Assembly (NCBI GenBank): GCA_025937035.1
Contig: JAICSG010000057.1
Span: 1 to 12,014 of the forward strand
Reading direction: 5' to 3'
From: Thermoanaerobaculia bacterium
GTDB taxonomy: Bacteria; Acidobacteriota; Thermoanaerobaculia; Multivoradales; UBA5704
DNA: 12,014 bases
Below the pieces are notes generated by a model. That model ran no database searches. It was given only the letters and a program-made list of their open reading frames with translations, and was not told the DNA's origin. Positions 107 through 3,754 of the stretch are shown piece after piece. The translations under genes were made by a program, and so were the position numbers. Each line of letters opens with the position of its first letter. The first letter of the stretch is position 1.

Positions 107-1894
107 ATGAAGAGCCGCACCCTTCACGCCGCCGCGCTCGCGGTCACCCTCTGGGCCGCCGCCGTCCCCGCCGGAGCCCTGCCTTCGCCGAAGAGCTCCT
201 GGATCGAGGTCCACACGGCGAGCTTCACCCTGTTCAGCGAGGCCGGGGAACGGAAGACGCGGGAGATCGGCGAGGATCTCGAACGGCTGCGCGACGCCCT
301 CTCCCAACTCTCCCCGGGGCTGACTCTGAGCTCGCCCACCCCCACCTACATCTTCGTCTTCAAGGACGCCCCGTCGTTCCAGGCCTATCAGCGGACCTAC
401 AACGGCAAGCCGGTCGACTCCGGCGGGTACTTCCTCGGCCGTCAGCTCGCCAACTACGTGGCGATCAACGGCGACCAGCACGGCGACGAGAGGGCCATCA
501 TCTATCACGAGTACCTGCACTACCTGATGCACACCAACTTCGCGGCCCTCCCTCTCTGGCTGAACGAGGGGCTGGCGGAGTACTACAGCACGTTCCAGGT
601 CGCCAGAGACGAGGCCCGCATCGGCCTGCCCATCCCCGAGCACATCCTTTGGCTGCGGCAGCACGCGCTCATCCCGTTCGCCACCCTGTTCGCGGTGACC
701 GACAAGTCCCCCGAGTACAACGAGGCCGACCGGCGCGGCGGGTTCTACGCCGAGTCCTGGGCCCTCGTCCACTACATGATCTCGGGTAACCCCGAGCGCC
801 GGCGGCAGGCGTCGGAGTACCTCCGGCTGGTCCAGGCCGGCACCCCGCCGGACCAGATCTTCGCCAAGGCGTTCGGCACCGATCCCGCCGTGCTGCAGCA
901 GGAGCTCCAGCAGTACGTCCGCAAGAAGCTGTTCGATTACACCCGCCTGCCCATCCGGCGGGAGACGAGCGTCGCCGCGGACGTGAGACCGCTGGCCCGC
1001 GCCGACGTGCTCTACCGTCTGGGGGACCTGCTGGCCAACCTGGGCGACGACCACGCGGCGGACGCCGCGGAGCATTTTCGCGCGGCCCTGGCGCTCCAGC
1101 CGGACCACGGCCAAGCGCTCGCCGGCCTCGGTTTCCTGGCCGAGCAGGCCGGGCGGAAGGACGAGGCGCGCTCGTTCTACGAGAAGGCCGCGAAGCTCGC
1201 GCCGGACGACGTCCGGGTGCAGTATCTCTACGCGAACAACCTGATCGACGATCCCGGTCCCGACTCGCTCCGGAAGGCGCGCGCCGCGTTGACCCGGGCC
1301 GTGGCGCTGCGGCCCGACTTCGGAGAGGCCTGGGCGCGGCTCGGCTACACCTATCAGGCCGAGGAGAGCCTGCCGCCGGAGGCCATCCAGGCCCTGGAGA
1401 CGGCCCACCGTCTTCTCCCCGCCCGGATGGACGTGGCCCACAACCTCTCCCTGGCCTACGCGCGCACCGGCCAGACGGCCAAGGCGGAGGATCTCATCGA
1501 GCATGTGCTCGTCCCCCAGGCGACGCCCGAAGAGATCGCGAGCGCCCGCGAGGGGCTGCTCGACGAGGAGCACCGCCGCGCCGAGGAGCTCGTCAACGCC
1601 CAGAAGCTCGCGGAGGCCCTGCCCGTTCTCGAATCGATCAAGGCGAAGACCAGCCGGCCGCAGCGGCGGGCCGAGATCGAGCAGCAGATCGAGGAGATCC
1701 GGCACGCCCTCAATTTCAACGCCTTCGTCGACCACTACAACCAGGCGGTCGAGCTGGCGAACCGGGGAAAGGTCCAGGAGGCGGTCGCCATCCTGGAGCC
1801 GCTGCTCCAGACCACCCAGGACCCCATGCAGATCGAACGGGCCCGGTCGCTGCTGGAGCGGCTCAAGCCGGGGCGGAAGAAGAAGGGGCACTGA
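107..1894 (+). CDS. Secreted HExxH metallopeptidase-like protein (DUF1570/gluzincin type) with C-terminal TPR repeats
   Basis: This is a 595-residue protein. Residues 1-24 form a signal peptide: a basic start (MKSR), an Ala/Leu/Val-rich core, and a likely cut after PAGA. Residues 30-280 look like the DUF1570/peptidase-MA type of zinc peptidase, with the metal motif HEYLH at 134-138 and a downstream WLNEGLAEYY stretch at 151-160. In gluzincins that stretch supplies the third zinc ligand, probably E154. From about 300 to 575 the chain is helical TPR repeats, for example 301-335, 337-370 and 441-470, which usually bind partner proteins. It probably acts in the periplasm or at the envelope; its substrate is unknown. 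The start chosen is ATG 107, because the in-frame TTG at 80 would put nine extra residues before the signal peptide and would overlap the preceding stop. No strong ribosome site precedes it. It appears to end a transcription unit, since a regulatory dyad starts at its stop codon. Confidence 0.88.
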   Translation: MKSRTLHAAALAVTLWAAAVPAGALPSPKSSWIEVHTASFTLFSEAGERKTREIGEDLERLRDALSQLSPGLTLSSPTPTYIFVFKDAPSFQAYQRTYNGKPVDSGGYFLGRQLANYVAINGDQHGDERAIIYHEYLHYLMHTNFAALPLWLNEGLAEYYSTFQVARDEARIGLPIPEHILWLRQHALIPFATLFAVTDKSPEYNEADRRGGFYAESWALVHYMISGNPERRRQASEYLRLVQAGTPPDQIFAKAFGTDPAVLQQELQQYVRKKLFDYTRLPIRRETSVAADVRPLARADVLYRLGDLLANLGDDHAADAAEHFRAALALQPDHGQALAGLGFLAEQAGRKDEARSFYEKAAKLAPDDVRVQYLYANNLIDDPGPDSLRKARAALTRAVALRPDFGEAWARLGYTYQAEESLPPEAIQALETAHRLLPARMDVAHNLSLAYARTGQTAKAEDLIEHVLVPQATPEEIASAREGLLDEEHRRAEELVNAQKLAEALPVLESIKAKTSRPQRRAEIEQQIEEIRHALNFNAFVDHYNQAVELANRGKVQEAVAILEPLLQTTQDPMQIERARSLLERLKPGRKKKGH

Positions 1895-1937
1895 CACCCG
1901 CCTGACGGAGCTGACACCAGCGTCACCCGTCTGTCAG
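1891..1937. promoter_or_regulatory. Composite dyad of TGAC half-sites, candidate upstream activating sequence
   Basis: Two 17-base arms are arranged symmetrically about base 1914. The left arm is CTGACA-N6-TGACG (1891-1907) and the right arm is CGTCA-N6-TGTCAG (1921-1937), with 13 bases between them. A further dyad, TGAC-N6-GTCA, sits inside at 1912-1925. CTGACA/CTGTCA copies begin at 1891, 1911 and 1931, exactly 20 bp apart, so they lie on one face of the helix. The centre is about 118 bp upstream of the predicted start of the sigma-54 transcript at 2032, a typical position for an enhancer bound by a sigma-54 activator. No T-run follows, so it is a poor terminator. Binding by the neighbouring regulator is inference. 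Confidence 0.5.
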
Positions 1938-2005
1938 CCTCCCCCGATTTCCATGTCTCTCTCGTAAATTGATGATTCTAAAAGGTATTCCAAATCTCCT
2001 GCCCC

Positions 2006-2021
2006 TGGCACAACCCCTGCT
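2006..2021 (+). promoter_or_regulatory. Sigma-54 (RpoN) -24/-12 promoter
   Basis: The element reads TGGCAC-AACCC-CTGCT and matches 10 of the 11 defined positions of TGGCAC-N5-TTGCW. The invariant GG (2007-2008) and GC (2019-2020) are separated by exactly 10 bases. The predicted start is near 2032. An AT-rich stretch (about 1964-1996) lies between it and the dyad at 1891-1937, where DNA bending would be expected. The nearest downstream element is an intrinsic terminator, so its main product should be a short RNA. Confidence 0.72.
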
Positions 2022-2031
2022 ATATGGAAAA

Positions 2032-2091
2032 GACATTGACGTGCCCTCCAAGCAACTCCTCGGTGGTATCCCCCACGAGGAGCTTTTTTTT
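2032..2091 (+). ncRNA. Predicted ~60-nt sigma-54-dependent small RNA
   Basis: A transcript starting 12 bases past the -12 GC and ending in the T-run of the terminator would be about 60 nt long. Its first 24 nt are predicted to be single-stranded and contain CCCUCC (2044-2049), complementary to Shine-Dalgarno sequences. The rest is the terminator hairpin. No reading frame with a ribosome site fits between promoter and terminator. The small RNA is inferred from promoter plus terminator; I recognise no known RNA family. The alternative is a leader with an attenuator for the regulator gene at 2135, although that gene has a promoter-like sequence of its own after the terminator. Confidence 0.5.
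2056..2091 (+). terminator. Rho-independent terminator
   Basis: The stem CTCCTCG-(G)-TGG pairs with CCA-CGAGGAG. That gives 10 base pairs with one bulged G and a six-base loop, followed by a C and eight T residues (2084-2091). This is a textbook intrinsic terminator on the plus strand, 43 bases before the regulator start. A competing hairpin, GGAGC-T8-GCTCC (2079-2096), uses the 3' arm and would exclude the terminator fold. Confidence 0.85.
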
Positions 2092-2096
2092 GCTCC

Positions 2097-2127
2097 TTGC
2101 GCCGATCGGCGGCCCGTGGAGTACACT
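2097..2127 (+). promoter_or_regulatory. Sigma-70-like promoter for the regulator gene, possibly giving a leaderless mRNA
   Basis: TTGCGC (2097-2102) and TACACT (2122-2127) are 19 bases apart. The expected start, 7-8 bases past the -10 element, falls on or next to the ATG at 2135, so the message could be leaderless. That fits the absence of a well-placed Shine-Dalgarno sequence: the nearest GGAG, at 2118-2121, is 13 bases from the ATG. The spacing is longer than ideal, so this is tentative. Confidence 0.35.
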
Positions 2128-2134
2128 GGGTTGA

Positions 2135-3754
<1,620 letters not shown>

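Follow-up and report, generated by a model that had tools for sequence, protein, structure and literature searches.

A probable sigma-54-dependent small-RNA gene directly upstream of a sigma-54 activator gene in an acidobacterial genome

Positions 1891-2091 of the window, as we call the whole 12,014-nt stretch of DNA analysed here (contig C706 of host genome G000, whose assembly has 1254 contigs totalling 5.69 Mb and a completeness of 93.75%), are best read as a stand-alone, sigma-54-dependent small-RNA gene, a reading to which we assign a probability of roughly 78%. The sequence elements of such a gene are present, their order is beyond chance, and they are selectively conserved in one sister genome (G001). 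Because promoter and terminator never recurred together in shuffled sequence, and because the RNA and the enhancer half-sites were kept while the spacer and the fourfold codon sites changed, the locus very probably represents a small-RNA gene under selection with its own sigma-54 promoter. The initial annotation had proposed that the unit makes an RNA of about 60 nt from such a promoter; this proposal is well supported by the layout, the chance tests and the selective conservation in G001, and we infer from the sequence that the RNA is transcribed. The locus would offer a concrete, testable circuit, consisting of a sigma-54 RNA and its likely activator, in a phylum of soil bacteria that has received little study.

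The candidate gene lies in a 240-bp gap (1895-2134) between two genes on the plus strand. The upstream gene (80-1894) was assigned to Pfam TPR families and encodes a protein that has TPR repeats and a region weakly resembling a metallopeptidase; its stop codon ends at 1894, and by synteny it also precedes the regulator gene in G001 and in G002, a genome of the same genus. The downstream gene, with its ATG at 2135, encodes a 539-residue sigma-54 activator (2135-3754; PF00158, PF02954), the likely controller of the RNA. Reading of the sequence confirmed that a dyad, a promoter and a terminator follow one another within this one gap, as first described: the 5′ to 3′ order is TGAC/GTCA half-sites, a -24/-12 promoter, and a stem-loop followed by T8. 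When the gap was shuffled 2000 times with its dinucleotides preserved, a comparable promoter arose 24 times and a comparable terminator twice, and the two never arose together in order (0/2000).

The -24/-12 sigma-54-type promoter TGGCACAACCCCTGCT occupies positions 2006-2021 of the plus strand; this site, TGGCACaaccccTGCT, carries GG-N10-GC, and the predicted start is 2032 if the C of GC is taken as -12. The promoter had been credited with 10 matches out of 11. Its presence was borne out, but scoring against the consensus TGGCACG-N4-TTGC (11 positions) gave 9/11; the orthologous promoter of G001 matches the consensus at 10/11 positions. Promoters of the 9/11 grade occur four times in the 12-kb window, counting both strands, and are thus not rare alone. 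The host genome encodes RpoN (PF04552, E = 2.5e-65), and the pattern TGGCAYN5YTGCW was found in it at 40 sites, compared with 18 for the reversed control; judged by these counts, G000 carries a real sigma-54 signal. All 40 of these sites were fetched, together with 7 of 46 from G001. A T6 run after 40-70 nt was seen at only one of the 40 G000 sites, that of the window, and most of the others were found by reading to lie upstream of an open reading frame. One of the G000 sites (L099, G000:C301:6722-6737, minus strand; TGGCATCGACCCTGCT) precedes a type IV pilin-like gene, has a single CTGACA at -114, and resembles the window promoter in its -12 region.

The predicted small RNA (2032-2091, plus strand, about 60 nt) folds with -16.0 kcal/mol (z = -2.13; 5 of 200 shuffles were equally good). 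Its CU-rich 5′ arm (2034-2051) is mostly unpaired according to sequence reading and pairing probabilities, and folds weakly by itself (-0.8 kcal/mol). The strong terminator reported at 2056-2091 was seen as a bulged stem-loop (2056-2082) with a C-rich loop, a C, and T8 at 2084-2091; the hairpin alone reaches -15.2 kcal/mol in G000 and -18.5 kcal/mol in G001. A simple terminator scan did not report the hairpin at 2056-2082, which we attribute to the bulge in the stem. That no known RNA family fits was upheld by an Rfam covariance search, in which the sole match, at chance level, was mir-1182 (21.4 bits, compared with a gathering score of 90), located within the TPR gene but on the opposite strand; no family of Rfam, whether Qrr, GlmY, CrcZ or another, exceeded its gathering score.

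Comparison with the sister genome showed which parts of the gap are conserved. The G001 locus lies on contig C273, which ends within the regulator gene; its gap also measures 240 bp and aligns without internal gaps. Identity between the two genomes is 30/38 in the enhancer stretch (1891-1928) and 30/73 in the spacer between enhancer and promoter (1929-2001; 43/73 bases changed), and rises to 28/30 in the promoter stretch (2002-2031) and 58/60 in the RNA (2032-2091), including 27/27 in the hairpin. Conservation extends beyond the terminator (39/43 in 2092-2134). At fourfold codon sites of both flanking genes, 449/538 positions are identical and 89/538 differ (16.5%), a yardstick that is imperfect because of codon bias and that compares two genomes only. 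Against this rate, the RNA shows too few changes (P = 0.0016), as do promoter and RNA taken together (P = 0.0004), and no excess conservation was detected for the promoter alone (P = 0.11), the whole enhancer (P = 0.83) or the sequence beyond the terminator (P = 0.14). Within the enhancer stretch, the four half-sites kept 16/16 bases in G001, compared with 14/22 for the other columns of 1891-1928 (P = 0.012); a fifth half-site, at 1933, is out of register there.

These patterns bear on two other accounts of the gap. The hairpin might be only the terminator of the upstream TPR gene, with an accidental -24/-12 match: it follows that gene at a distance of 160 nt, on the same strand, and the window has four promoters of this quality. 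The retention of promoter and RNA while 43/73 spacer bases changed, and the G002 gene pair, which stands 16 nt apart with no such terminator, make this account improbable. A small protein instead of an RNA is more improbable still, being encoded either on the plus strand, from an ATG at 2025 to a TGA that overlaps the regulator start, or on the minus strand, from a start at 2036 behind GGAGGG. By reading, neither frame is interrupted in G000 or G001, but most changes in the plus-strand frame alter the amino acid, the minus-strand peptide shows conservation only in its overlap with the promoter, and the plus-strand ATG lies upstream of the predicted transcription start.

The identification of the next gene as an AAA+ sigma-54 activator was sustained by Pfam, which found the sigma-54 AAA+ domain (PF00158, E = 7.6e-59) and a Fis-type helix-turn-helix (PF02954). 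Residues 1-161 had no Pfam match; an FHA-like N-terminal domain was an impression only, Pfam finding nothing there, and a search against solved structures gave matches only in the AAA+ and C-terminal parts. Among 120 homologues listed of 2818, at least 10 regulator orthologues (P0001-P0010) show 88-93% identity over 98-100% of the length, and a further group (P0011-P0031) stands at roughly 76%. The sigma-54-contact loop reads GAYTNS, not GAFTGA. In the 120 listed homologues, the loop was GSFTGS in 42, GAFTGS in 22, GSFTGA in 18, GSYTNS in 12, GSFTSS in 10, GSYTSS in 7, GAFTGA in 4 and another sequence in 5, with the aromatic residue kept in all 120 and the threonine in 119.

The regulator probably has its own leaderless promoter, separate from that of the RNA, as judged from a probable -10 box, TACACT, at 2122-2127 of the plus strand. 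A TANA(A/C)T hexamer begins 12-16 nt upstream of the ATG in 10 of the 13 regulator genes checked, a set that left out L039; the hexamer is missing from G003:C17, G000:C619 and G000:C51. Such boxes suggest leaderless mRNAs in the regulator family. A box with TANA(A/C)T, ending a few bases before the ATG, was noted for the window gene (2135-3754) and for L003, L005-L009, L012, L032, L037 and L040. That the regulator probably has a promoter of its own is an argument for treating the RNA as a unit in itself. It also weighs on a third account, in which the sigma-54 promoter drives the regulator and the hairpin is a leader attenuator whose read-through would give autoregulation. The order of promoter, terminator and gene, and the conservation of the entire stretch up to the ATG, agree with an attenuator. 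However, the RNA without the 3′ arm of the hairpin reaches only -6 kcal/mol, in folds that differ between G000 and G001, leaving no strong alternative structure, and the probable -10 box is shared by relatives that have no such leader; we regard attenuation as unlikely.

Returning to the small-RNA gene, its putative enhancer (1891-1937) overlaps the stop codon of the TPR gene. The dyad described there was verified, with arms at 1891-1907 and 1921-1937 that are 76% complementary, and it can be read as half-sites, TGAC at 1892, 1903 and 1912 and GTCA at 1922 and 1933. Its centre near -118, as originally given, agrees with a start at 2032. The exact array TGAC-N7-TGAC-N5-TGAC-N6-GTCA occurs once in G000 and once in G001, in both cases at this locus. 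With two mismatches allowed, one extra place was found in each of G000 and G002, in addition to the reverse reading of the window site, and the reversed control gave one place, in G002. Among the 47 promoters compared, that of the window had the most TGAC/GTCA half-sites within 250 bp (five; the next had four).

An array private to its locus suits a local regulator, and it favours, without proving, control of the RNA by the adjacent activator. Control by the neighbouring regulator, as the initial annotation had proposed, is plausible in view of the private array and of published precedents, but the contact loop departs from GAFTGA; we lean slightly towards the adjacent regulator as the enhancer-binding protein of the RNA. 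Alternatively, the RNA may be real and sigma-54-dependent but under a different enhancer-binding protein, the neighbour serving other genes. Activator homologues are numerous in G000 (18 matches at E <= 0.001), the regulator is present without the RNA in G002, and two activators can serve a single RNA, as described for Qrr1 (PMC10162802). Set against a different controller are the restriction of the half-site array to this locus in G000 and G001 and the highest half-site count among the 47 promoters, as a local regulator predicts, and we consider such a controller possible but doubtful.

Outside G000 and G001 the element was not recovered. In G002, the regulator is 68% identical and is separated by 16 nt from the end of the same TPR gene that precedes it; the small-RNA insert is missing between the two genes. 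No insert was found upstream of the regulator relatives examined in G003. The expected conservation upstream of orthologous regulators thus held in G001 but was not seen ahead of the nearest regulator relatives that G002 and G003 encode. When 148 genomes of the class were searched with a BLAST-type method, 86 had at least one match at E <= 1, with a full-element match only in G000 and G001; the other matches listed covered short pieces, none of them with E below 0.0035. A covariance model (R1), built from the two sequences, identified the G000 and G001 copies and no homologue in G002 or G003, the search of these four genomes also returning two hairpin-only fragments (E = 0.6 and 1.6). In a sample of 396 genomes of the phylum, searched with stricter filters, R1 revealed no homologue: at E <= 0.05 it matched G000 and, at 22.6 bits or less, five other genomes, and these five matches were treated as chance, since all fall within open frames (151-424 aa) and only one of the five has a T5 run. 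On these searches, the RNA is lineage-restricted; either the lineage of G000 and G001 would have gained it or other lineages would have lost it.

In the mechanism that we propose, an enhancer-binding protein would bind the TGAC/GTCA array near -118, and looping and ATP hydrolysis would open the RpoN-polymerase at the -24/-12 promoter. An RNA of about 60 nt would begin at about 2032 and stop at the hairpin and T8. The likeliest enhancer-binding protein would be the product of the next-door gene, which would be expressed from a leaderless promoter of its own lying beyond the terminator. The RNA would then act in trans, its CU-rich 5′ arm and C-rich loop pairing with ribosome-binding sites, so that translation falls. 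The 5′ arm reads CAUUGACGUGCCCUCCAA, the complement of UUGGAGGGCACGUCAAUG, which consists of a Shine-Dalgarno sequence, a spacer and AUG. This complementarity to an idealised ribosome-binding site and start codon, together with the C-rich loop, suggests pairing with translation starts, a mechanism to which we give an even chance.

Possible targets were sought with a 17-base pattern, the reverse complement of part of the 5′ arm, allowing up to three mismatches. Counting the locus itself, G000 gave nine matches and G001 gave 14 (reversed control, 1 and 4). Of the remaining 21, we inspected the 15 that end in ATG or GTG. One gene was matched in both genomes, at a site deep within the frame; L179 in G000 and L187 in G001 lie near plausible gene starts, and neither has a counterpart in the other genome's list. 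As this pattern search gave no target at a gene start common to G000 and G001, the pairing with translation starts is one that we infer.

The gene qrr1 adjoins luxO, and CrcZ is a longer, Hfq-titrating RNA. Sigma-54 RNAs encoded beside genes for enhancer-binding proteins are a known kind, of which the predicted window RNA is a member new to the sources searched. Pxr of Myxococcus xanthus is described as a small RNA with a sigma-54 promoter beside the response-regulator gene nla19 (PMC5568312), and it resembles the window RNA, as predicted, in being a sigma-54 RNA in an intergenic region next to a gene of the sigma-54 activator type. Pxr, however, is found on the downstream side of nla19, has a length of about 108 nt and has a predicted triple stem-loop (PMC5568312), whereas the window RNA lies upstream of its neighbour, is about 60 nt long and has one strong hairpin. 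The GlmY/QseEGF/GlrR system has, as predicted for the window, a sigma-54-type promoter, enhancer sites and an RNA placed before regulator genes (PMC8745638); its QseF sites are TGTC-N10-GACA (PMC8745638), compared with the TGAC/GTCA array of the window, and the window regulator, unlike the glmY-qseEGF layout, seems to have its own promoter. Qrr1/LuxO is similar to the predicted window unit in that a small RNA is transcribed by the sigma-54-polymerase with two upstream enhancer sites (PMC10162802); the Qrr1 UAS is given there as TTGCAWWWTGCAA, and the window RNA has no Rfam match to Qrr. CrcZ/CbrB, again like the predicted unit, combines a sigma-54 small RNA with an NtrC-family activator and several sub-sites in the crcZ promoter (PMC6296734). 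For Acidobacteria, one review lists four distinct annotated small RNAs in its table (PMC9029176), and our literature searches found nothing on Acidobacteria sRNA and RpoN, or on Acidobacteriota small RNA and transcription start sites.

A search for the promoter-plus-T-run pattern, followed by a covariance search, also yielded a second RNA, kept across several genera of the class. In 147 genomes of the class the pattern was found at 13 distinct places in 11 genomes (reversed control, 4), and three of the 13, all in f17, a family other than that of the window, represent one RNA behind a sigma-54-type promoter. A covariance model built from these three loci (R2) gave matches at E <= 0.01 in 23/147 genomes: nine f17 genomes with E below 1e-8, G140 (f17) with 2.4e-4, G098 (f13) with 1.2e-5, and twelve weaker ones; G134 contained a second match (E = 1.6e-8). 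The f17 RNA is about 60 nt long and consists of GCGCACACTCCAGCCTCTCCTCC followed by a GCCGCCC/GGGCGGC terminator. In the ten aligned copies (G134, G135 and G140-G147; L201-L209 and L211, near 1501-1591, L207 at its own match), the promoter TGGCAC-N6-TGC is strictly kept (10/10) and the DNA before it varies. The tail of an RNase G/E gene, confirmed by Pfam in G135, directly precedes the RNA in five of the ten (G134, G135, G141, G142 and G143); RNase G/E was not found nearby at the other five loci. Rfam gave, over the RNA at the three f17 loci, only a sub-threshold Leu_leader match (22.8 bits, compared with 50), and the f17 RNA may be a new RNA family.

At the G098 locus (L210:1501-1613, plus strand; G098:C96), a -24/-12 site TGGCACGATCCTTGCT is followed by a CU-rich stretch and a hairpin with a T run, and a gene for a sigma-54 activator (L210:1639-3111, minus strand) lies convergent to them; on these predicted features the locus is a second activator-RNA neighbourhood in the class. 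The f17 and G098 RNAs resemble the window RNA in their -24/-12 promoter, CU-rich arm and terminator hairpin. R2 had no match in G000 at E <= 0.01, and homology between the window and f17 RNAs was not significant (142/2000 shuffles were as good). We tentatively suggest, as a conjecture that could well fail, that this acidobacterial class recurrently uses sigma-54-switched, CU-rich RNAs that block ribosome-binding sites, which would have arisen or diverged at least three times (window, f17 and G098). If true, such RNAs would occur in three settings: before an activator gene (window), after an RNase G/E gene (f17) and beside another activator gene (G098). A single further case, apparently outside the main genes, was noted in G030 (L155:5532-5614, minus strand; G030:C7), where a -24/-12 site is followed by a strong hairpin and a T run.
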